DNA of 28,168 bases, taken from positions 1 to 28,168 of the IMG/VR virus record IMGVR_UViG_3300042452_000842, one strand, 5' to 3'. The notes beneath the pieces were generated by a model. That model was not told where the DNA came from. It searched no databases and saw only the letters and a list, made by a program, of their open reading frames with translations. The DNA comes from a virus. Both the position numbers and the translations under genes were made by a program. The first letter of the stretch is position 1; each line of letters starts with the position of its first letter. Of the stretch, positions 9,405 to 26,202 are shown piece by piece.

Positions 9405-9521
9405 GGCGGACCTCGAGGCGTACCGCTTCCGGGGGCTTCATGCCCCCTCGTGCGGCGAGGCGGTCGGCCAGTTTCCTTCCAGGCAAGCAGCCGTCAAACG
9501 CCCCCTACAACCGGAACCTCT

Positions 9522-9583
9522 CGGTTCTGTAGAGCATCGGTCTACGGAACCGAAGGTTGAAGGTTCGAGCCCTTCCGGGTGTA
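9522..9583 (+). other. attP: attP with the 3' part of tRNA-Arg(ACG)
   Basis: Bases 9530-9583 read as a tRNA from the D-stem 3' side onward: anticodon stem TCGGT/ACCGA (9537-9541, 9549-9553), loop CTACGGA with anticodon ACG at 9544-9546, T-arm GAAGG/CCTTC (9559-9563, 9571-9575), acceptor strand CGGGTGT and discriminator A at 9583. The 5' acceptor strand (ACACCCG) and D-arm are absent, so it is not a working tRNA. An imperfect inverted repeat, CGGTTCTGTAGA (9522-9533) and TCTACGGAACCG (9541-9552), matching at 11 of 12 positions around a 7-base centre GCATCGG, fits the core binding sites and crossover region of the integrase. On integration it would restore the host tRNA gene. The 9405-9652 stretch has no gene; it also holds a GGGGGC/GCCCCC hairpin at 9431-9447 in the integrase leader. 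Confidence 0.85.
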
Positions 9584-9652
9584 TTCGGCTGCTCAATGGA
9601 CACTAGGGTCCGGCGGCCGTGGAGGCAAGGAAATTCCACGGAGGGCCTGGAT

Positions 9653-9919
9653 GTGGCGACGGTGAGCGAAAGACACGCGGGCGGGCGACCACGGGTTCAC
9701 GAGCCGTCCGAACTTTTTGTGCGAGTCGAGCGGCTGGCGAGGAGTCGCGGCCTTCACCTGGACGAACTGGCCGCGAAGGCAGGAATCTCAACTCCAACGC
9801 TGTACCAGTTGCGAGACCCAAAAGTCTCGACGGCGAAGGCAATCGCCGCAGCGCTTGGAATCACGATTGACCGACTGATCGCTCCACCGCGGCGATCCTC
9901 TCGCCGAGCCAGCGCATGA
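9653..9919 (+). CDS. XRE-family (Cro/CI-like) DNA-binding regulator
   Basis: An 88-residue protein from GTG 9653, with GGAGG eight bases upstream. Residues 20-75 form a Cro/CI helix-turn-helix: VRVERLARSRGLHLDELAAKAGISTPTLYQLRDPKVSTAKAIAAALG, with the recognition helix near STPTLYQL. The C-terminus is basic (PPRRSSRR). It lies between attP and the methyltransferase and faces it tail to tail with a 59-bp overlap. Position and type make it the first candidate for the lysogeny repressor that binds the palindrome at 11340-11368, but binding is inferred. Confidence 0.8.
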   Translation: MATVSERHAGGRPRVHEPSELFVRVERLARSRGLHLDELAAKAGISTPTLYQLRDPKVSTAKAIAAALGITIDRLIAPPRRSSRRASA

Positions 9920-11334: not shown

Positions 11335-11346
11335 GTGTGCTGAAAA
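11318..11346 (-). promoter_or_regulatory. Methyltransferase promoter
   Basis: Minus strand -10 TATTAT (11323-11318) and, 17 bases upstream, -35 TTTTCA (11346-11341). The -35 lies inside the left arm of the palindromic operator. The predicted leader is short, and the GGGAGGG ribosome binding site follows. Confidence 0.5.
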
Positions 11347-11368
11347 CTGCCGTTGACAAGGTTTTCAG
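11340..11368. promoter_or_regulatory. Palindromic operator between divergent promoters
   Basis: CTGAAAAC (11340-11347) and GTTTTCAG (11361-11368) form a perfect 8-bp inverted repeat with 13 bases between. The early promoter -35 lies in the gap and the methyltransferase -35 lies in the left arm, so one bound repressor could block both. The regulator is not shown; the XRE protein at 9653 is the nearest candidate. Confidence 0.65.
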
Positions 11369-16189: not shown

Positions 16190-16479
16190 GCGACCTTGTC
16201 GAGCGGTTGGTTGGGGTGGCTGAGTTTGTTGGCCGAGAGCCGCGGGCGGTTTTGTACGAAGCCGTGAAGGAGATCGAACGGCTGCGGTCGCTGACGCGGT
16301 TCCAGGATGGCGTGATCCGCAGCGGCGACGTGGCGTGCCTGACGACAGCGGAGCGGGAGGCGATTGCCGCCGGTCTTGGTGCGCTGGAACGACTCTACGA
16401 ATACTCGCCGCCGATCAGCCAGCCAATCTATGAGCAGCACGCACCGACGCTGCGGGCGCTGCTGGAGCGGACGAAGTGA
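16186..16479 (+). CDS. Hypothetical early protein
   Basis: A 97-residue protein whose ATG overlaps the previous stop (ATGA). It is mostly helical (SDLVERLVGVAEFVGREPRA, VLYEAVKEIERLRS, TAEREAIAAGLGALERLYEY), with a coiled-coil-like heptad around EIERL. Its end overlaps the next gene's GTG by four bases. Not recognised. Confidence 0.65.
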   Translation: MSDLVERLVGVAEFVGREPRAVLYEAVKEIERLRSLTRFQDGVIRSGDVACLTTAEREAIAAGLGALERLYEYSPPISQPIYEQHAPTLRALLERTK

Positions 16480-16727
16480 GCCAACACCAACGCATCCTCG
16501 AGTCGCCAAGCGTCGGCACGACGCGGGGGCAGGAAGCCGTGGTGCGGGCGATCCGCAAGGCCAGGTCGCGGCACCCGTGGTACGGGCCTTCATACCGAGA
16601 GATTGCTGACGAGCTCGGCGTGACAGTCAACGACGTGGCGCAGAAGGTCAGCCGGCTCTTACGCGACGGTCGCGTGAAAGTAGATCACGGCGTGGCACGA
16701 TCCCTGCGAGTAACGGACAGAAAATGA
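16476..16727 (+). CDS. LexA-N-like winged-helix protein
   Basis: An 83-residue protein from GTG 16476. Residues 20-78 resemble the LexA DNA-binding domain: EAVVRAIRKARSRHPWYGPS, YREIADELGVTVNDVAQKVS, RLLRDGRVKVDHGVARSLRV, including the GPSYREIA turn and the wing. It has no protease domain, so it is not a full LexA. It may bind operators within the element. It overlaps the resolvase gene by four bases. Confidence 0.75.
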   Translation: MSQHQRILESPSVGTTRGQEAVVRAIRKARSRHPWYGPSYREIADELGVTVNDVAQKVSRLLRDGRVKVDHGVARSLRVTDRK

Positions 16728-17553: not shown

Positions 17554-17573
17554 AGGTCGTGTGGAGTTCGAAA

Positions 17574-18020
17574 GGGGGGGCGGCCGGCGGCCGGCCGGCG
17601 GAAGTACCTTGGTGTACGCCCGTACACTATCCCCCCCACTAGTGGTATTTCGATAGCCTCGCCCGCCCCCCCTATCGGTAGTATTTCGATGGCCGGCCGA
17701 TCGGCCGGCATGATGGCCGGCCGGCGTGCTCGTGCTCGTGCTCGTGACGGTGCATCATCACGAGCGATGGGACGATGGCCGCTCGATTGACAGCCTGGCC
17801 GGCCGATGGCCGGCCACGTCACGAGACGCCAGCGGCAAGCCTGGCCGACGGTGCACCGTCACGATCGGCCGGGCGCCCGGCCAGGCTATCGAAATACCCT
17901 GGCCGGCCGTGGCCACGTCACGAGCGGCCGGACGATGGCCGGCGGCCAGGTCGCCGGGCTGGCCGGCCATCGTGCACCGCCACGAGACGGCCGACGGGCG
18001 GCCGTGCTCGTGACGTGGCC
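17574..18020. repeat. Noncoding repeat-rich region, candidate replication or partition locus
   Basis: No credible gene lies between 17512 and 18163. The stretch holds a perfect 16-bp inverted repeat, GGTATTTCGATAGCCT (17644-17659) against 17883-17898, and another direct GTATTTCGAT at 17681-17690. A 14-mer GGCCACGTCACGAG occurs at 17812-17825 and 17911-17924 and inverted at 18007-18020, with shorter relatives at 17741-17748 and 17858-17865. There is also a palindrome GTGTACG-CC-CGTACAC (17612-17627) and many GGCCGGCC boxes. Iterated sites between two operons fit an origin or a centromere-like site; this is inference. Opposite-strand frames here look like chance products of high GC. Confidence 0.6.
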
Positions 18021-18075
18021 AGCCCCCACCGATTAGGGGATAGGTGGGGCGGCGGATTCTCACGATACCAAATGT

Positions 18076-18086
18076 CCAATCGGCAA
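18076..18086 (-). promoter_or_regulatory. Inverted copy of the CCGATTGG operator box
   Basis: CCAATCGGCAA here is the reverse of TTGCCGATTGG, the box found between -35 and -10 in the promoters downstream. It sits 54 bp before the copy at 18141-18151, in opposite orientation, and has no good -10 of its own, so it may be a second operator for the same regulator. Confidence 0.55.
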
Positions 18087-18128
18087 GTGTGCCGGGCGCA
18101 GCGGAATTCCAGAAAAATTTTTCATGGC

Positions 18129-18157
18129 TTGCAACCATTGTTTCCGATTGGTAGATT
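18129..18157 (+). promoter_or_regulatory. Promoter with operator box, leaderless for the first HTH gene
   Basis: TTGCAA (18129-18134), 17-base spacer ending TTTCCGATTGG, TAGATT (18152-18157), six bases, then the ATG at 18164. No ribosome binding site exists, so the message probably starts at the ATG. A 12-bp A/T palindrome GAAAAATTTTTC (18112-18123) just upstream looks like an UP element. Confidence 0.7.
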
Positions 18158-18163
18158 AACGAC

Positions 18164-18739
18164 ATGAACACGGCAGCACACAAGCAACGGGCGGCGGAAT
18201 TCGGCCTCGATTGGTCGATCGTGCTTGAACTCTACCGGGAGGCCCGCGAACTAGAGCGTCAGGACGTTGAGCGGCTGACGGCCGATCGTCACGAAGCCTA
18301 TAGCGGGCTGGCCGGCCGCGTGCACGGCGGCCACGTCAAGGCAACCCACCGCCGCGCGTTCCGCGACGGTGGCGACGCCACGAACGTGGCCGGCCTTGAC
18401 GTGGTGGCCGCCGGCCGCGGAATGACGGCCGATGAACTCTTCGCCGAGCTGGCCGCCGACGCGCCAGGCTTGCGGCCGGCCGACGACGTGATGATCGAAG
18501 CGATCGATCGCGCCGCCCGCATGATGGCCGCCCCGGCCGCCGCCCCGGCCGCCGACATGGTGCCGCTCGTGAGCGGCGCGATCGTCGCCGACGTTACCGA
18601 ACAATGGATGCGGCGCATGGTCAAGGCCGGACGGATTCGCGGCTGCAAGGCCGGCCGCAATTGGCTCGTGTCGATCGCCGATTGTGAATCGTTCCGCCGG
18701 CATCCAACGGCCGGCCGCCCGCGCGTTACCCCCTTCTAA
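18164..18739 (+). CDS. Excisionase/MerR-like HTH protein
   Basis: A 191-residue protein. Residues 1-120 are helical and Ala-rich (LDWSIVLELYREARELERQD, then GGHVKATHRRAFRDGG), unrecognised. The C-terminal 55 residues (VTEQWMRRMVKAGRIRGCKA, GRNWLVSIADCESFRRH) form an excisionase-type winged helix ending with the usual RPR tail. It is expressed from its own promoter carrying operator boxes on both sides, which suggests autoregulation. It could be the excisionase, a regulator of the CCGATYGG promoters, or even a small-terminase-like protein, since lambda gpNu1 has a related fold; I favour regulator. Confidence 0.75.
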   Translation: MNTAAHKQRAAEFGLDWSIVLELYREARELERQDVERLTADRHEAYSGLAGRVHGGHVKATHRRAFRDGGDATNVAGLDVVAAGRGMTADELFAELAADAPGLRPADDVMIEAIDRAARMMAAPAAAPAADMVPLVSGAIVADVTEQWMRRMVKAGRIRGCKAGRNWLVSIADCESFRRHPTAGRPRVTPF

Positions 18740-18760
18740 CCGCCCCGGAGACCGCCACCG

Positions 18761-19000
18761 ATGACAGCCGCTCAATTCTGCCGATTCGCCGCCCGCATGG
18801 CCGACATGGACGCCGCCGCCCGCGACGCCGTGGCCGCCCTGGCCGCCGCCGACGTGGCCGCCGCCGACGCCGCCGCCCCGCGCGGCACGACCGCCCGCCG
18901 CGACGCCGAGCGGCTGATTCTCGAATTGCACGATGCCGGCGCCCCCGTGGCCGCCGGCCGCCCGACGGCCGCCCGCACCATGTCGCTTTTCGCCGATTGA
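18761..19000 (+). CDS. Small Ala-rich hypothetical protein
   Basis: A 79-residue protein behind the recurring leader GGAGACC...ATG used across this region. About a third of its residues are Ala (MDAAARDAVAALAAADVAAA), with a C-terminal half of more normal composition (RRDAERLILELHDAGAPVAA, ending TMSLFAD). Not recognised. Low complexity lowers confidence, but the leader and tight spacing favour a real gene. Confidence 0.55.
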   Translation: MTAAQFCRFAARMADMDAAARDAVAALAAADVAAADAAAPRGTTARRDAERLILELHDAGAPVAAGRPTAARTMSLFAD

Positions 19001-19029
19001 CCCGCCCCCACCAACGGAGACCCGCCACC

Positions 19030-19365
19030 ATGACCCGCGCCGACTTCGAGACCGCCGCCGCCGATCGACTCACGATCGCCGCCACCGCCACGGCCGCCCG
19101 CCTGGCCGCCGCCGCCCGTGCCGCGGCCGCCTGGCTTGACGGCCTGGCCGCCGAGCTGGCCGCCGCGGCTTCGCCGCTCGCCCGCGAGCGTGCCGCCGCG
19201 GCCAGGTGCCGCCCGTGCCCGGTGCCGCCGCCCGTGCCGCCCGCCCGCCCCGCCGCGGCCATCGTGCCGCCGCCGGTGCCGCCCGCTGCCCGGCCGCCGA
19301 TCGCCCCGCCCGCCGTTGTGCTCGTGACGCCGACGGCGGCCGCCCCCGTGCTCGTGACGATTTGA
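19030..19365 (+). CDS. Ala/Pro-rich hypothetical protein
   Basis: A 111-residue protein behind CGGAGACCCGCCACC-ATG. The first half is an Ala-rich helix (RLAAAARAAAAWLDGLAAEL), the second half Pro/Val-rich (PVPPPVPPARPAAAIVPPPV), perhaps a flexible linker or stalk. The end of the gene contains two CTCGTGAC sequences, the same core as the repeats in 17741-18014. Not recognised. Confidence 0.5.
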   Translation: MTRADFETAAADRLTIAATATAARLAAAARAAAAWLDGLAAELAAAASPLARERAAAARCRPCPVPPPVPPARPAAAIVPPPVPPAARPPIAPPAVVLVTPTAAAPVLVTI

Positions 19366-19393
19366 CCAACCCCAACCCCGGAGACCCGAGACC

Positions 19394-19813
19394 ATGACCA
19401 CGCCCCGCCCGATCGCCCCGGCCCGATACGTCGCCCGTCGAATCAGCGACCCCCGCAGCCGCGGCGCCTGCTACTGGTTCGAGGTGGAAAGCGTAGACGC
19501 CGACGGCCGCCGCTCGTTTGTGGCGATCGCCGACACGCGCGAGGAGGCCCGCGACATCGTGCGGCGCCTCAATGCCGCCGCCAGCGACCAGGCCCGCCGG
19601 GCCGCCTACGCCCGGCTGACCGCTGCCCGCGAGCGTGCCGCGGAATTGCAGGCCATGCGTCGCGGCTTCGCCGCGGCCACGTTCCGCCCGTTCCGAACGC
19701 CGGGCGCGATGGCCGGCCTGGCCGTCGCCCGCATGGACGCCGCCCGCGAACTCCGTGCCGCCCGCGCCGCCTACGACGCGGCCGCCGCGGCTCAGTTTGA
19801 CTCGACCACTTGA
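19394..19813 (+). CDS. Hypothetical protein, basic helical
   Basis: A 139-residue protein behind CGGAGACCCGAGACC-ATG. The N-terminal 60 residues look like a small alpha/beta domain (CYWFEVESVDADGRRSFVAI, ADTREEARDIVRRLNAA); the rest is a long Arg/Ala helix (YARLTAARERAAELQAMRR). A DNA- or RNA-facing role is possible. It ends within the -35 of the ardC promoter (its TGA is part of TTGACC). Not recognised. Confidence 0.6.
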   Translation: MTTPRPIAPARYVARRISDPRSRGACYWFEVESVDADGRRSFVAIADTREEARDIVRRLNAAASDQARRAAYARLTAARERAAELQAMRRGFAAATFRPFRTPGAMAGLAVARMDAARELRAARAAYDAAAAAQFDSTT

Positions 19814-19837
19814 CCCGTTGTTGCCGATTGGTAGAAT
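19810..19837 (+). promoter_or_regulatory. ardC operon promoter with operator box
   Basis: TTGACC (19810-19815), 16-base spacer ending TTGCCGATTGG, TAGAAT (19832-19837). The leader to the ardC ATG is about 45 bases and carries GAGGAGACC. It shares its spacer box with the promoters at 18129, 21772, 24224 and 24764. Confidence 0.7.
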
Positions 19838-19888
19838 CCCCACAACACGCGGCCACAACGGCCGCACAACCCGAGGAGACCAGAGACC

Positions 19889-20854
19889 ATGCCCACCACC
19901 ACCACCACCACCACCCGCGCCGACGTTTACCAGACCGTCACCGATGCGATCGTCGCCCGCCTCGAATCCGGCGAGTTGGCCCCGTGGCACCAGCCGTGGA
20001 AGGCCGGCAACGCCGCCGGCCCCGTGTCGCGCCCGCTGCGCCACAACGGCCAGCGGTATTCCGGCGTGAACGTGTTGTGGTTGTGGATGGCCGCCGAGGC
20101 CGCCGGCCATACATGCCCGTACTGGCTGACCTACCGGCAAGCGCAGGAGCTGGGCGGCCACGTCCGCCGCGGGGAGAAGTCTACGCCCGTCGTGTTTGCG
20201 TCCACGTTCACGAAGCGCGAGACGCTCGCCGACGGCACCGCGAAAGATCGGAAAATCCCGTTCCTGAAAACCTACGCGGCGTTCAACGCGCAGCAGTGTG
20301 ACGGCCTGCCCGAGCACTACTACCGGCAGCTGCCCCCGCCCGCCGGCCACGTTGACCCGCTGCCGGCCGTGCTCGACTTCGCCCGGCACACCGGCGCGGA
20401 CATCCGCACGGGCGGCGCCCGTGCTTGCTACGTGCCCAGCGGCGACTACGTGCAGATGCCCGACGCGGCCACGTTCGAGAGCGCCGAGGCCCACGCTGGC
20501 ACGCTCGCCCACGAGCTGGCCCACTGGACGGGCCACGCGTCGCGGCTCGACCGCGGGATGGCCCAAGCGAAGCGATTCGGAGACGACGCCTACGCGGCCG
20601 AGGAGCTGGTAGCCGAACTGGCCGCCGCGTACCTGGCCGCCGATCTCGGTTTCGAGGCCCAGCCCCGCGACGACCACGCCGCCTACCTGGCCTCGTGGCT
20701 CCGCGTGATGAAGGCCGACAAGCGCGCCATTTTCACCGCGGCCAGCGCCGCCAGCCGGGCGGCCGACTTCCTGCACGGCTTGCAGCCCGGCGGCGCAGCG
20801 GCCCCCGCCGAGGAGACCGACGCCGAGACCGACGCCGAGCCGGCCGCGGCTTGA
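19889..20854 (+). CDS. ardC: ArdC-type antirestriction protein
   Basis: A 321-residue protein with the ArdC layout. The N-terminal domain (DVYQTVTDAIVARLESGELA, then PWHQPWK and RYSGVNVLWLW) binds single-stranded DNA in the family. The C-terminal part is a zincin-like metallopeptidase domain with HELAH at residues 208-212 and EELVAE near 238-243 supplying the third ligand. ArdC proteins protect incoming plasmid or phage DNA from host restriction. The N-terminus has a run of seven Thr from repeated ACC codons. It has its own CCGATTGG-box promoter, so it is probably made when that regulon opens. Confidence 0.93.
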   Translation: MPTTTTTTTRADVYQTVTDAIVARLESGELAPWHQPWKAGNAAGPVSRPLRHNGQRYSGVNVLWLWMAAEAAGHTCPYWLTYRQAQELGGHVRRGEKSTPVVFASTFTKRETLADGTAKDRKIPFLKTYAAFNAQQCDGLPEHYYRQLPPPAGHVDPLPAVLDFARHTGADIRTGGARACYVPSGDYVQMPDAATFESAEAHAGTLAHELAHWTGHASRLDRGMAQAKRFGDDAYAAEELVAELAAAYLAADLGFEAQPRDDHAAYLASWLRVMKADKRAIFTAASAASRAADFLHGLQPGGAAAPAEETDAETDAEPAAA

Positions 20855-20964
20855 CGCCTGGCCGCCCCGGCACCCCCCGCCGCCCGCGGGCGGGGGAGAC
20901 CGGGCCGGCCCGGCACAACGCCGGCCACCGCGACCCACGAGAGACCCCGATGAGGCCCGAGACC

Positions 20965-21348
20965 ATGACCACGAAGCGAAAGACCGCCCGCACCGCCCCC
21001 ACCGACCAGCGGCCGACGTGCCCGAACTGCGGCGGACACAACGTCGAGGATACCGCCTGGATCACCTACCGCCCCGATGGCACCGCCGAGATCGTGAACG
21101 GCGAAGGCCCGTTCGGCGACGACGAGGGGACATGGTGCCACGACTGCCAGGAGCACGCCGGGCTGAGTTTCCCCAAGCTCACGCCCGCCGACGACGCCCG
21201 CCGGCAGTCAGCCGCCCACGCCCGCGCCCACGGGCCGGAGTTGCTCGCCGTCGCCCGCTGGGCGGTTGACCAGATAGCAGACGACCTTGACCCCGAGCAC
21301 CAGGAAGCGCTCGCGGCTGCTCGTGAGCTGCTCGCGCGGCTCTCGTGA
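20965..21348 (+). CDS. Zinc-ribbon hypothetical protein
   Basis: A 127-residue protein. Two in-frame starts are possible; I prefer ATG 20965 because it has the region's usual GAGGCCCGAGACC leader (20950 is the alternative). Residues 20-65 form a zinc ribbon: CPNC, a beta segment (DTAWITYRPDGTAEIVNGEG), then CHDC and H. The C-terminus is helical (PELLAVARWAVDQIADDLDP). It probably binds zinc; DNA contact or protein binding is open. It follows ardC after a 110-bp GC-rich spacer. Confidence 0.7.
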   Translation: MTTKRKTARTAPTDQRPTCPNCGGHNVEDTAWITYRPDGTAEIVNGEGPFGDDEGTWCHDCQEHAGLSFPKLTPADDARRQSAAHARAHGPELLAVARWAVDQIADDLDPEHQEALAAARELLARLS

Positions 21349-21392
21349 AACCAACCACCACAACCCCACCCCAACCCAGGAAACCCCAACCC

Positions 21393-21752
21393 ATGAACGC
21401 CATCACGCTCGCCGCCCTTCGCCACTTCGAGCACGCCGCCGCCGTGCTCGCCAGCCTGGCCCCCGATCTAGTTTCGACAGACGACCGAGACCGGCGCGTG
21501 CCCGTGTCGCTCGACTCGCCGGCCTGGCCGGCCATCGACGACGCGCTCGATCTTTTGTACGCGATCGAATCCGAGCCGGACGCCGACACGCCGGCCGGAT
21601 TCGCACACTGGCACCGCGTCGCCTGGCTGGAGGTTGTGCGGGCGGCCGCCGCCGCAGCCGGCCACGGCGCCGACGACGCGCCACGGTGGGCGAGCATGAC
21701 CGCCGCCCAGCTGGCCGACGAACTCTTCTACCTGGCCGACTTCCAAGGCTAG
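21393..21752 (+). CDS. Hypothetical helical protein
   Basis: A 119-residue protein from ATG 21393 with CAGGAAACC upstream. It is mostly helical (AALRHFEHAAAVLASLAPDL, WPAIDDALDLLYAIESEPD, WASMTAAQLADELFYLADFQ) and acidic. The frame is open upstream to 21345, but that part overlaps the preceding gene end and leader. Not recognised. Confidence 0.65.
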   Translation: MNAITLAALRHFEHAAAVLASLAPDLVSTDDRDRRVPVSLDSPAWPAIDDALDLLYAIESEPDADTPAGFAHWHRVAWLEVVRAAAAAAGHGADDAPRWASMTAAQLADELFYLADFQG

Positions 21753-21771
21753 AAAAAATATCCTCCCCCCC

Positions 21772-21800
21772 TTGCACCCATTGTTTCCGATTGGTAGATT
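21772..21800 (+). promoter_or_regulatory. Promoter with operator box
   Basis: TTGCAC (21772-21777), 17-base spacer ending TTTCCGATTGG, TAGATT (21795-21800), preceded by an A-rich tract (GAAAAAATAT). From TTGCA to AGATT it is almost identical to the 18129 promoter. It drives the 21853-24190 gene string with a leader of about 45 bases. Confidence 0.7.
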
Positions 21801-21852
21801 GCACAGAGACACGCGGCCGCCGGCCGCACAACCCACGAGGAGACGAGAAACC

Positions 21853-22473
21853 ATGTCCGCCCGTTTCAAGATTCACGGCATGACCGACGAGCCTGGCCAC
21901 TGTGAGCTATGCGGCACTTTCTGCCCGCGCCGCCGTGTCGCCGTTGAGCTGATCGCCGACGACGGCAGCACCACCGGAGACGTGCAGCTGTGGGGCGTCG
22001 TCTGTGCCGCCGAGGCCCGGCACGGCCGCCGCGACTCGACCCTAGCCAGGCAGCTCCAGGGAGAGGCCGAGGAGGCCGGCGCCTACACCGGCCCGGCCCG
22101 CGGCCGCCGCCGGATGCCGGCCGGCGACCGCCCCCGCCGGCAGACCCGGCGCGAGGCCTTCCGCCTGGCCGCGATCGCTGAAGCCGACGCCCGCGCCGTT
22201 TGGTTCCGCACGTCGTCGCCCGTGCCGGCCGCGCTCGCCGCCGCCGAGGCCGATGGCCGGCCGTGGCTGGCCGCCGAGGCCCGCTACACCAACACCGGCC
22301 ACCCTCGCGCCGCCGGCCACGCCTACCGCCACGACGACGGCCGACACGCGATCGTCAACAGCACCAGCCCGGCCGACGTGGCCCGGTTCGAGCGGCACGG
22401 CTTCCGGCACGTCGCCGGCGCCGAGCTGGCCAACTGGCCGACCGTTGCCGAGGCGCTTGCGGCCACCGCCTAG
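21853..22473 (+). CDS. Hypothetical protein with N-terminal zinc-finger-like motif
   Basis: A 206-residue protein behind GAGGAGACGAGAAACC-ATG. Residues 15-35 contain CELCGTFC plus later Cys, a possible zinc knuckle (EPGHCELCGTFCPRRRVAVE). The middle is basic (RGRRRMPAGDRPRRQTRREA) and the C-terminal third has ARYTNTGHPRAAGHAYRHDD and WPTVAEAL. First gene behind the 21772 promoter. Not recognised. Confidence 0.65.
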   Translation: MSARFKIHGMTDEPGHCELCGTFCPRRRVAVELIADDGSTTGDVQLWGVVCAAEARHGRRDSTLARQLQGEAEEAGAYTGPARGRRRMPAGDRPRRQTRREAFRLAAIAEADARAVWFRTSSPVPAALAAAEADGRPWLAAEARYTNTGHPRAAGHAYRHDDGRHAIVNSTSPADVARFERHGFRHVAGAELANWPTVAEALAATA

Positions 22474-22568
22474 CGGGCGGCCGCCCCCGCCCGCCCCGGC
22501 ACGCCGCCGGGCTGGACGGGGCCGGCCGTTCGCCGACCCGTAGCCCCCAACCCCAGGAGCCCATAGCC

Positions 22569-23087
22569 ATGACCACGACCGCCACCACCCACGCCAACCA
22601 CGCCCACACGCCCGGCCCGTGGAGGCACAACCCGAGGACCGGACGCGTGATGCTCAACGGTTCCGCGGTCTATTCGATCCGCGACCGCTGCGCCGACCCC
22701 GACGCCCCGCCCCGGTTCAATCCGGCCGACGTTCAATTGATGGCGGCCGCGCCCGAGCTGCTCGCCGCCCTGCGTGCCGCCATGCAGCTGCTCGACCGCG
22801 TTCACGCGGTCCACGCTTTGCAGTTTTCCGTAGATACGGCACGCGACTTGTCGGCCGCCTGGCTCGCCGCCAGCCGGGCCATCGAATCCGCAACCCTCCC
22901 CCTACGCCGCTGGAGCGTCACCGCCCTCGTGGCGGAATGGAATCCGGCCACCGGCGATTACGACGAAATCGACCTTGACCACGAGCCACGCGCCTACGAC
23001 GCCGCCGAGGCCGAGGAACTGGCCCGCGATGCCTGGAGCGACCACGGCCACAACCCCGACCGCGTGAAGGTGCGCCCGCTCGACTGA
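22569..23087 (+). CDS. Phage hypothetical protein with HTPGPW...LMAAAPELL motif
   Basis: A 172-residue protein. The first 70 residues carry a motif pair very common in phage early proteins of unknown role: HTPGPWR near residue 13 and DVQLMAAAPELLAALRAAM near 58-75. The rest (RRWSVTALVAEWNPATGDYD, EIDLDHEPRAYDAAEAEELA) is an added acidic domain. Start at ATG 22569 behind CAGGAGCCCATAGCC. Widespread family, function unknown. Confidence 0.75.
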   Translation: MTTTATTHANHAHTPGPWRHNPRTGRVMLNGSAVYSIRDRCADPDAPPRFNPADVQLMAAAPELLAALRAAMQLLDRVHAVHALQFSVDTARDLSAAWLAASRAIESATLPLRRWSVTALVAEWNPATGDYDEIDLDHEPRAYDAAEAEELARDAWSDHGHNPDRVKVRPLD

Positions 23088-23185
23088 CCCGGCCGCCCCC
23101 ACGCCGGCCCCGGCAACCGCCGCGGCCGGCCAGGGGGATGCCGGCGACAACCGCCGACCAGCCCGCCACCCAGGAGACCGAGACC

Positions 23186-23464
23186 ATGAACGCCACGCTC
23201 CACCCCTATCCGATCGCAGCCCCCGCCCCGCACGCCTGGAAGGTCGTGCACGAGTGGACAGACCAGCAGCCCAATAACGGCTGGTCGCTCGAGCGCTTCG
23301 CCGTGCCGATCGGCGACCACGCCACCGAGGCCGCCGCCCGCGCCCACGTCGCCGCCCGTGTCGCAGAGGGTATGCAGGCTGGCGAGGGCTATTTCATCCG
23401 CGACCCCGACGGCACCGTGATCCACCGCACCTACGCCACCAAATCCACGCGGCCCCGGATGTAG
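23186..23464 (+). CDS. Hypothetical protein
   Basis: A 92-residue protein behind CAGGAGACCGAGACC-ATG. It has a compact alpha/beta look: WKVVHEWTDQQPNNGWSLER, FAVPIGDHATEAAARAHVAA, GEGYFIRDPDGTVIHRTYAT. One of the small cassettes in this region. Not recognised. Confidence 0.6.
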   Translation: MNATLHPYPIAAPAPHAWKVVHEWTDQQPNNGWSLERFAVPIGDHATEAAARAHVAARVAEGMQAGEGYFIRDPDGTVIHRTYATKSTRPRM

Positions 23465-23582
23465 CCCACGCCGCCCCCGCCACCCCGCCCCAGCACGGAC
23501 GCCGGCCAGCGGGGAACCGGGGCCGGCCTGGCCACGCCGGCCACGCCCACACCCGCCCACGCCAACCAGGAGACCCACGCCC

Positions 23583-23858
23583 ATGCCCGCCTACGCCGCA
23601 ACCGAGATCGACCACGCCGCCTACCCCCGCCTCTGCCGGCGGATGAGCGAGGCCGCGCTGCAATTCACGATCGCCGACGCCCGCGCCGCCCTGGCCGCCA
23701 TGCCCGACGGCCCGAAAGCCGGCTACTACGCCGATGAAATCCATTACGCCCACGCCGAGCTTGCCCGCCGCGGCCGAGGCGGCCGGAGGGACACGCGGCC
23801 GCGGCTGCTCGCCGCCGACACGCACGCCGCCGGCCTGGCCGCCGTGCTCGAGGATTGA
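23583..23858 (+). CDS. Hypothetical protein
   Basis: A 91-residue protein behind CAGGAGACCCACGCCC-ATG. It is helical (DHAAYPRLCRRMSEAALQFT, IADARAALAAMPDGPKAGYY, ADEIHYAHAELARR) with an Arg/Gly-rich turn and a second Ala-rich helix. It follows a 118-bp GC-rich spacer. Not recognised. Confidence 0.6.
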   Translation: MPAYAATEIDHAAYPRLCRRMSEAALQFTIADARAALAAMPDGPKAGYYADEIHYAHAELARRGRGGRRDTRPRLLAADTHAAGLAAVLED

Positions 23859-23890
23859 CCCACGCCCGCCCACAGTCAGGAGCCACGCCC

Positions 23891-24190
23891 ATGCCCACGC
23901 CCGCCCCGCAGCTCGAGCTATTCGACAAAGGCCCGCCCCCGCCCCCGCCCTGCAAATGGATCGCACACCGCGGGCCGTGGGGCCGGAACCTTACATGGAC
24001 GCGGCCAGATATGCCCGGCATCGTCGTCCGCCACTGCGGCCACGGCACGGCCAGCTACCCCTACTACGTCACCCTCGGCGACTGCCGCGAGCCGGCCAGC
24101 CCCGGCACCTTCCGCACGCTCCCGGAGGTGCAGGCCGCCGCCGCACGCCTATGGAGCCACGCCCGCCCCGGAGCCACGCCGCCCCAATGA
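23891..24190 (+). CDS. Hypothetical protein
   Basis: A 99-residue protein from ATG 23891 behind CAGGAGCCACGCCC. It starts MPTPAPQLELFDKGPPPPPP, where QLELFD resembles short peptide ligands (such as the sliding-clamp-binding QLxLF), followed by a compact domain with HRGPWGRNLTWTRPDMPG and HCGHGTASYPYYVTLGDC. Clamp binding is only a suggestion from the QLELF motif. Not otherwise recognised. Confidence 0.6.
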   Translation: MPTPAPQLELFDKGPPPPPPCKWIAHRGPWGRNLTWTRPDMPGIVVRHCGHGTASYPYYVTLGDCREPASPGTFRTLPEVQAAAARLWSHARPGATPPQ

Positions 24191-24223
24191 AGCCACGCCC
24201 CCCCAGCCACGCCGCCCCCGGCA

Positions 24224-24251
24224 TTGACCGCAGCGGCCGATCGGCAATAAT
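24224..24251 (+). promoter_or_regulatory. Promoter of the double-HTH gene, leaderless
   Basis: TTGACC (24224-24229), 16-base spacer ending GGCCGATCGGC, AATAAT (24246-24251), six bases, then ATG 24258. The CCGATCGG here is the fully palindromic form of the box seen in the other promoters. There is no ribosome binding site. Confidence 0.6.
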
Positions 24252-24257
24252 CCCCCC

Positions 24258-24734
24258 ATGCCCACCATCGACCCGAAAAAATACGTCTCGATCCAGACCG
24301 GCGCCCGCCTGGCCGGCGTCGCCCGAATCACGCTCCGCGGGGCAATCAAGTCCGGCCGCGTCAAAGGCATCGAAATCGACGGCTACTATTTCGCCCTCCG
24401 CGCCGATTGCGAGAACTTCACCCGCGACCCGATCGGCCGAGGCCGCCCGCCACCCAAGAAAGCCACGCCCGCCAAGGCCGCCAAGGCCGGACGCTGGGGC
24501 TCGGCCAGAAAGACGGCCGCCGGCCGGTTCGACCCGGCGAAATACTTGTCGGTTGGCGCCGCCGCCAAGGCCGCCGGCGTGTCCCGGTTTTGGATGCGGC
24601 GGCTACTCCAAGAAGGCCACGTCGCCGGCATCGAAATCGACGGCCAAGCGTTCGCCCTGCGGACGGCCGTGGAAGCGTATGCAGCCACGCCCGCCGGCCA
24701 CGGCCGGCCGCGCGGCGGGAGCCACTCCGGCTAG
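24258..24734 (+). CDS. Tandem-duplicated excisionase-like DNA-binding protein
   Basis: A 158-residue protein built of two copies of one HTH module joined by a Lys/Ala linker. Copy 1 (about residues 9-62) reads KYVSIQTGARLAGVARITLR...GRVKGIEIDGYYFALR; copy 2 (about 96-150) reads KYLSVGAAAKAAGVSRFWMR...GHVAGIEIDGQAFALR. Both end in a GRGRP/GHGRP tail. Excisionase-like domains usually occur singly and bind as multimers, so a built-in dimer suits the closely spaced CCGATTGG boxes. It has its own leaderless promoter with the same box, suggesting self-control. Best candidate for the regulator of this regulon. Confidence 0.8.
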   Translation: MPTIDPKKYVSIQTGARLAGVARITLRGAIKSGRVKGIEIDGYYFALRADCENFTRDPIGRGRPPPKKATPAKAAKAGRWGSARKTAAGRFDPAKYLSVGAAAKAAGVSRFWMRRLLQEGHVAGIEIDGQAFALRTAVEAYAATPAGHGRPRGGSHSG

Positions 24735-24763
24735 CCGCTGCCCTGCTTTGGAAAATTCATGCC

Positions 24764-24810
24764 TTGCATCGTAGTTGCCGATTGGTATTCTGGTTGCCGA
24801 TTGGTAAGAT
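24764..24810 (+). promoter_or_regulatory. Two overlapping promoters with tandem operator boxes
   Basis: GTTGCCGATTGGTA occurs at 24774-24787 and again at 24793-24806, 19 bp apart. The first box ends at a -10 TATTCT (24786-24791) served by -35 TTGCAT (24764-24769); the second ends at -10 TAAGAT (24805-24810) with TTGGTA (24782-24787) at -35 position. They drive the 24846-26869 genes. Confidence 0.65.
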
Positions 24811-24845: not shown

Positions 24846-25355
24846 ATGCTCGCCGAGATCCAGCAGTTCGAGGCCGGCCGCACCTACTACTGCCGCTCGA
24901 GTTGCGACCACGACACGGTATTTCGCTACACGGTGCTATCCCGCACCGCCCGCCAAATCACGATCCGCGACGACTGCGGCCACGTCAGCCGCCGCGGCAT
25001 CAAGGCCGATGGCGGCGCCGAGTTCTGCTACCCCGAGGGCCGCTACAGCATGGCCCCGGTGATCCGCGCCGACCGCCGCCTCGACCCGGCCACGCCGCTG
25101 CCCGGCCGGGACGGCCTCTACCCGATCGGCACGAAGGTTGTCGCGCTCGACGGCTTCACGATCCGCGTCGGCCAGGTTGCCGACCACACAAGCGACCAAT
25201 TCGGCCGCTGGCACGTCGTCGTCATGGATGGAGCTTTCGAGACGGTGGGAAGCATCCGCGACCGCGACGCCCTCGGTATCGGCTGGCGAGTTGCCAAGGC
25301 CGACGAACTAAGCCGGCACGGCCAGACCGAAGGCCCGTGCTACACCGGCGACTGA
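24846..25355 (+). CDS. Hypothetical protein with a repeated plasmid/phage domain
   Basis: A 169-residue protein behind CGGAGAAAAACCACC-ATG. The N-terminal 80 residues (FEAGRTYYCRSSCDHDTVFR, YTVLSRTARQITIRDDCG, ending PEGRYSMAPVIRA) recall a small beta-rich domain found in plasmid and phage accessory genes. The C-terminal half (PIGTKVVALDGFTIRVGQVA, RWHVVVMDGAFETVGSI) looks like a second beta domain. First gene behind the double promoter. Function unknown. Confidence 0.65.
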   Translation: MLAEIQQFEAGRTYYCRSSCDHDTVFRYTVLSRTARQITIRDDCGHVSRRGIKADGGAEFCYPEGRYSMAPVIRADRRLDPATPLPGRDGLYPIGTKVVALDGFTIRVGQVADHTSDQFGRWHVVVMDGAFETVGSIRDRDALGIGWRVAKADELSRHGQTEGPCYTGD

Positions 25356-25710: not shown

Positions 25711-26202
25711 ATGCACACGCTCGCCCCCCTCGCCGCCGCCGGTTGCCTGTTCGTCCGCCTCGCCCGTGGCGAGAAACGGCCGATCGGCTCCGGCTGGCAA
25801 CACAAAGGGACCGACGACCTGGATGCCGTCGCCGCCTGGCTCGCCGCCCGCTCCAACGTCGGCATCCTGCTCGGGCCGGAATCCGGCGTCGTGGACGTTG
25901 AATACGACGAGCCGGAGGGCCGGGAGCACCTGGCCGCGTTCGGGATTTTCGACTTGCGAACGCCGACGTGGCGATCGGCCCGCGGGGAGCACCGGCTATT
26001 CCGCTGGGAACCGTGGATGCCGGCCACGGCGGCCATGAAGGTGGACGCGATCGAGATACGGATTGGCGGCCGCGCGGCTCAGTCGGTGCTCCCGCCGAGC
26101 ATCCACCCCAGCGGCGCCGCCTATGAGTGGATCGTCAGCCCCGCCGACGTTGCTATCGCCCCGTTCCCTGCTCAACTACTCGCACAGGAGGTACTCGCAT
26201 GA
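25711..26202 (+). CDS. Stand-alone Prim-Pol (bifunctional primase/polymerase) domain protein
   Basis: A 163-residue protein that matches the archaeo-eukaryotic-type Prim-Pol domain of plasmid and phage replication proteins. Seen: LARGEKRPIGSGWQ near the start, NVGILLGPESGVVDVEYDEP with the DxE pair Asp62/Glu64, GEHRLFRW with His94, and IEIRIGGRAAQSVLPPSIHP then SGAAYEW with a third acidic residue near 112-115. These are the catalytic positions of the family. Usual members are fused to a helicase or are several hundred residues long; this one is only the domain. It may prime the element's replication with a host helicase. AAAGGAGACC precedes the ATG. Confidence 0.85.
   Translation: MHTLAPLAAAGCLFVRLARGEKRPIGSGWQHKGTDDLDAVAAWLAARSNVGILLGPESGVVDVEYDEPEGREHLAAFGIFDLRTPTWRSARGEHRLFRWEPWMPATAAMKVDAIEIRIGGRAAQSVLPPSIHPSGAAYEWIVSPADVAIAPFPAQLLAQEVLA

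Follow-up and report, generated by a model that had tools for sequence, protein, structure and literature searches.

A shared operator within the early promoters of a probable planctomycete phage and an excisionase-like winged-HTH protein as its candidate regulator

Gene content and probable host of the phage

The window analysed in this study, 28,168 bases long, corresponds to an entire IMG/VR virus record. It contains a head module (portal, head protease/major head protein and terminase) on the minus strand, an integrase gene, a tRNA-Arg(ACG) gene and, on the plus strand, genes for CsrA, an AAA protein and a RuvC-like resolvase, beyond which lies an early block (18.1-26.9 kb). The host is very probably a planctomycete, because the tRNA-Arg attachment core exactly matches tRNA-Arg genes of freshwater Planctomycetaceae genomes, and the phage itself is very probably a temperate phage of freshwater planctomycete bacteria. 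A profile search of genome contigs found no prophages with the primase profile. An integrated planctomycete element (L328 272 and 406-1242; L329 14118-14525), about 34 kb long and flanked on either side by att copies, has in common with the window only the integrase, the XRE gene, att and a weak g14504-like match, and the operator block described below is absent from it.

The early block of the window lies after the RuvC gene, on the strand of the XRE operon; in relatives (L046 and L049) it comes after the integrase, on the integrase's strand. The orientation seen in the window may reflect either an inversion or rearrangement, or an effect of assembly. A different inverted repeat, CTGAAAAC-N13-GTTTTCAG (11340-11368), surrounds the -35 box of a plus-strand DNA-metabolism operon, and a matching promoter with an inverted repeat of 12-base arms is present in L045 and L046.

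Operator sites within early promoters

The promoters and genes considered here are the following (positions in the window):

18076-18083, minus strand: inverted copy of CCGATTGG, 46 bases upstream of the -35 box of the 18164 promoter
18129-18157, plus strand: promoter of HTH gene 18164, TTGCAA-17-TAGATT, operator CCGATTGG at 18144-18151
18164-18739, plus strand: 191-aa protein with a helical N-terminal domain and a C-terminal winged HTH, member of the proposed regulon
19810-19837, plus strand: promoter of ArdC gene 19889, TTGACC-16-TAGAAT, operator at 19824-19831
19889-20854, plus strand: ArdC-type antirestriction protein (PF08401, 1.1e-40; PF18818, 1.1e-47), member of the proposed regulon
21772-21800, plus strand: promoter of gene 21853, TTGCAC-17-TAGATT, operator at 21787-21794
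21853-22473, plus strand: uncharacterised protein conserved in relatives, member of the proposed regulon
24224-24251, plus strand: promoter of HTH gene 24258, TTGACC-16-AATAAT, weak operator CCGATCGG at 24237-24244
24258-24734, plus strand: tandem winged-HTH protein of 158 aa, domains at about 1-60 and 90-145
24764-24810, plus strand: tandem promoters of gene 24846, operators at 24778-24785 and 24797-24804, 19 bases apart
24846-25355, plus strand: uncharacterised protein, first gene past the tandem operators
25714-26202: primase-polymerase, after gene 24846

The original prediction held that the word CCGATYGG directly precedes the -10 box of six promoters, with 16-17-base spacers and TTGNNN -35 boxes. 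Spacers and -35 boxes of this kind were read from the sequence at all six promoters, and CCGATTGG was located exactly where it had been placed at five of them (18144, 19824, 21787, 24778 and 24797, all on the plus strand), each time followed by TANNNT; CCGATTGG followed by TA is limited to these five strong promoters. The sixth site, CCGATCGG, is real, its position being corrected by one base (24237 rather than 24238); it is a weaker site, followed by C and then by the -10 box AATAAT. The tandem promoters have the boxes TTGCAT-16-TATTCT (24778 site) and TTGGTA-17-TAAGAT (24797 site), of which the second -35 box is poor and falls within the preceding operator. A/T tracts were recovered upstream of three promoters (18144, 21787 and 24778), as reported earlier, and such tracts are seen in many relatives as well. 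The predicted inverted copy is also present, as CCAATCGG at 18076-18083. It is possibly an auxiliary operator, and it is poorly conserved, the same place reading CCGATCGGCAA in L081 and CCACTCGGCAA in L060.

Comparison with chance expectation upheld the motif in its extended form only. The word CCGATTGGTA occurs 5 times in the window vs 0.02-0.12 expected (simulation maximum 1), each copy being situated between a TTGNNN -35 box and a -10 box with a spacer of 16-17 bases, whereas bare CCGATYGG is mostly background away from promoters. The latter gave 27 strand-matches in the window (vs a mean of 4.95), 20 of which are the palindrome CCGATCGG counted on both strands, nearly all of them away from promoters. 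Taken alone, CCGATCGG is not significant in the window (20 vs 8-9 expected, simulation maximum 24-28) and it was rejected as a signal, being background in GC-rich DNA. The discriminating word is CCGATTGGTA, not bare CCGATYGG; the CCGATCGG copy at 24237 counts because it is placed within the conserved promoter of gene 24258. The operator as a whole forms an inverted repeat, though not a perfect one, of the approximate form TTGTNNCC-GATN-GGNNACAA; its centre lies some 17 bases before the point where transcription is expected to start, and it overlaps the -10 box.

Conservation and variation of the operator among related phages

The terminase, ArdC, gene 21853, the 24258 and 18164 proteins and the primase-polymerase served as queries for relatives. 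This recovered many IMG/VR contigs in which the order of the block is unchanged, and the same early block is present in about 50 related phages. The motif search over the window and its relatives, suggested with the original prediction, revealed that the promoter-type operator recurs in the early blocks of the latter. The layout of -35 box, CC-GATN-GG and -10 box is kept upstream of the orthologues of 18164 (in about 30 distinct phages), ArdC (the same in L045, L046, L047 and L044) and 21853 (operator promoters close upstream in L034, L049 and L051), and downstream of the 24258 orthologue. In the promoters of the 24258 orthologues themselves, the pattern TTGAC...GGCAAYAATG carries CCGATCGG, CCGACCGG or no site. 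The proposal of a regulon with one operator between -35 and -10 thus gains support from recurrence at orthologous promoters in about 50 divergent phages, and from sites that are strand-specific and vary between phages, and little within one phage.

Across 89 representative loci (1.2 Mb), 61 promoter-type operators were found on the strand of the early block and 3 on the other; 60 shuffled cores gave a mean of 0.5 (maximum 3) and the reversed pattern gave 0. With one locus taken per phage group, the difference between sites of the same phage is 2.8 out of 15 bases vs 5.1 with permuted labels (P=2e-4), and 40 of the 46 within-phage pairs have a common -10 register (28.7 with permuted labels, P=0.001). 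Such likeness within phages and difference between them is the mark of a phage-encoded, phage-specific regulator.

The operator occupies a very regular position next to the -10 box, in one of two registers, the core either touching the box (the window, L046, L049, L051, L058 and L163) or standing one base off. Its spelling varies roughly symmetrically among phages: the L126 operator is a perfect 20-base palindrome, TTGTATCC-GATC-GGATACAA, symmetric variants are found in L029 (GTCGATCGAC) and L027 (CCCATGGG), and in L115 and L089 the dyad is re-spaced to a 6-base centre (CCGATATCGG or CCGATAGCGG). The symmetry is imperfect, with CCGAT less variable than NGG, and no covariation beyond base composition within each register was seen at flanking positions +-1 and +-2. 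Since flank symmetry is weak, the case for a dyad is built on the core together with the perfect palindromes and symmetric variants.

In many relatives the element TTCTCACGATACCAAATGTCC (window 18057-18077) is conserved, at about 90-110 bases before the start of 18164. The window region 17560-18050 is non-coding and GGCCGGCC-rich, with the repeats CGTGACG/GTGCACCGTCACGA and GGTATTTCGATAG/CTATCGAAATACC. Relatives of the L168 type have a stereotyped leader, GAACGTGGAAACGA, before nearly every gene start (L168 3640-5460), in place of which the window and its closer relatives have variants of AACCAGGAGCCCGAACCC.

The 24258-type protein as candidate regulator

Two HTH proteins encoded within the regulon, 18164 and 24258, had been put forward as candidates for the regulator, and covariation and co-occurrence with the operator favour only the second. 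The 24258-type excisionase-like winged-HTH protein is the best candidate on these sequence criteria. Its gene has its own promoter, and an operator promoter (usually one) lies directly downstream in nearly all relatives. Three phages (L109, L191 and L195) have a 24258-type protein and the operator without a full 18164 protein; conversely, in L168, L172, L173, L176, L177 and L179, a set of few, fragmentary contigs, 18164 is present with neither a separate 24258 protein nor a canonical operator. In L089 and L115 the HTH is a variant (SERHMRLL), and the dyad with the 6-base centre is found at its own promoter and at the next.

In partial Mantel tests controlled for the primase, the operator covaries with the 24258-type protein (r=0.27, P=0.00025, n=28; in a smaller set r=0.28, P=0.026, n=12). 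The correlation of operator distance with the primase persists when the HTH protein is controlled (r=0.37), so phylogeny is incompletely removed and the covariation is support rather than proof.

In relatives the protein is a single domain of about 72 aa. These relatives form two groups, and each domain of the window protein resembles the single-domain form of one of them. Two adjacent single-domain genes are present in L165, a pair that is plausibly the precursor of the fusion. The predicted structure of the 24258 protein has confident tandem winged-HTH domains. Its match to Pfam HTH_17 (15.9 bits) is below the gathering cut-off of 27, and weak matches to this profile were obtained for 7 of 17 members of the family. 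Foldseek matches of the type comprise Pukovnik Xis, BldC, RacA, P2 Cox, RdfS and the tandem TraN, with probability up to 1.00 and TMt of about 0.7 (Pukovnik Xis and BldC), none of them reaching E 0.001.

Alternative regulators

Among the other candidates, a phage LexA-like protein (16476-16727; 83 aa, a LexA DNA-binding domain without the peptidase) binding the N4-centred dyad is an unlikely but still noticeable alternative. PF01726 scores above cut-off for the window and for 14 of 40 phage records, most of the longer records among them, and the spacing of the operator centre is similar to that of some LexA boxes. Against this, its recognition helices vary greatly among phages whose operators are almost the same, it lacks covariation with the operator in a Mantel test given the primase (r=0.07, P=0.33), and its gene lies far from the operators and was undetected in the operator-bearing L028 (45 kb). 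Nor do the sites appear to belong to a host LexA/SOS regulon: the operator was found at none of the readable host lexA promoters in 18 planctomycete genomes, and these promoters have a different conserved sequence, absent from the window.

The Cro/CI-type XRE protein encoded next to the integrase gene (9632-9919) is a somewhat less probable candidate; it would act as a classical lysogeny repressor. HTH_3 is above cut-off, phage repressor families match, and one planctomycete genome has a copy with 68% identity immediately past the tRNA-Arg attachment site, a location from which it could be expressed when integrated. The XRE gene of the window is likewise just past the attachment core (9506-9919); that of the integrated element has the same strand as the tRNA-Arg gene and follows it by about 70 bases, and the tRNA promoter could thus drive its expression once integration has occurred. 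The XRE protein was, however, undetected in the long operator-bearing records L060, L090 and L099, and the XRE-headed leftward operon of relatives has a different promoter dyad (e.g. TTTCAAAACTCC-N7-GGAGTTTTGAAA in L045), which would be a more natural XRE target.

Autoregulation by the 18164 protein through its own promoter is more doubtful again. This protein has a conserved C-terminal winged HTH and a strong operator promoter, but L168, L172, L173 and others have it and lack canonical operators, operators are retained in phages in which nothing but an HTH-like relative of it was found, and in tests controlled for the primase its HTH does not covary with the operator (P=0.32 and 0.54). That the motif is instead a fixed promoter element recognised by the RNA polymerase or by a regulator of the host, as the regular position beside the -10 box might suggest, is very improbable, and this reading was rejected, since the two-mismatch operator pattern is at the level of the reversed control in 18 planctomycete genomes, with no enrichment, its spelling is phage-specific and some promoters of the same phages are without it.

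Proposed circuit

The sites would thus be operators of a phage-encoded transcription factor, most likely the 24258-type protein, that blocks early promoters, a reading to which we assign a probability of roughly 0.55. In broader terms, joint shut-off of the early genes by some DNA-binding protein of the phage is very likely, and this protein is probably small and excisionase-like. The site, its layout, conservation, strand bias and per-phage spelling are read from the sequence, and from them we infer binding, repression and the identity of the regulator.

Bound to the dyad inside the promoter, a protein dimer (or, in this phage, a single tandem molecule with two domains) would keep RNA polymerase off five or six early promoters of one strand simultaneously. 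With spacing near 17, TTGAC boxes and -35 boxes that are often near-consensus, these promoters look intrinsically strong, and an operator overlapping their -10 boxes implies repression, RNA polymerase presumably being blocked if the site is occupied. The 24258 gene would be transcribed from its own nearly leaderless promoter, at which the operator is weak or missing; the protein could therefore be expressed, and autoregulate, while other early promoters are shut, and the weak operator fits negative autoregulation. The role of the circuit may be either lysogenic immunity or a Cox/Apl-like early shut-off.

Comparison with known systems

MerR regulators bind dyads between -35 and -10, and MerR activators use 19-20-base spacers. 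In its predicted winged-HTH fold the 24258 type would resemble the MerR family and BldC, and the location of the dyad is as in MerR systems; the spacers of 16-17 bases in the window, unlike those of MerR, point to repression. MerR-type activation from a spacer dyad, which needs 19-20 bases, was accordingly rejected (the scan of relatives covered spacers of 16-18).

In Cluster A mycobacteriophages the repressor has 20-30 asymmetric operators/stoperators, mostly outside promoters, and the site motifs of different phages are similar but not identical, in correlation with repressor distance (PMC6550527). The system proposed here would be similar in having one phage repressor and many same-oriented sites with a spelling for each phage; it differs in its smaller number (about 3-6) of dyad-like sites, all inside promoters, and in an unrelated small protein.

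Excisionase-class proteins with a second role offer another parallel. Apl of phage 186, a small DNA-binding protein of this class, also represses phage promoters and binds direct-repeat clusters at att and between two promoters (PMC7498355), and XisF4 of Pf4 is likewise described as an excisionase-class protein that represses phage promoters (PMC7379572). The candidate would be of the same class as Apl, XisF4 and P2 Cox, the last of which also represses phage promoters and is among its fold matches; unlike those of Apl, the sites here are single inverted repeats inside many separate promoters, which counts against 24258. RdfS of ICEMlSymR7A, a small winged-HTH directionality factor, binds its own promoter and has no consensus motif (PMC11963761); the predicted fold of the candidate would be similar, and the sharp site motif is the difference. 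TraN of plasmid pIP501, with two tandem winged-HTH domains, is the best Foldseek match of the window protein (TMq only 0.28) and, unlike 24258, is encoded by a conjugative plasmid.

Implications for planctomycete phages

No regulatory circuit of a planctomycete phage was found in the literature searched. The present analysis yields a defined putative operator, a set of apparently co-regulated early genes, including one for an antirestriction protein, and a ranked list of candidate regulators, and both operator and regulators are testable with synthetic DNA. Tentatively, the excisionase-like winged-HTH protein may be the master immunity repressor of this large planctomycete phage family, in which immunity would diverge by joint change of operator and protein, the operator spelling, the -10 register and even the dyad centre (N4 to N6) changing in step with the protein. 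The approximately 50 phages with matched operator and protein variants would constitute a natural experiment on the evolution of winged-HTH specificity.
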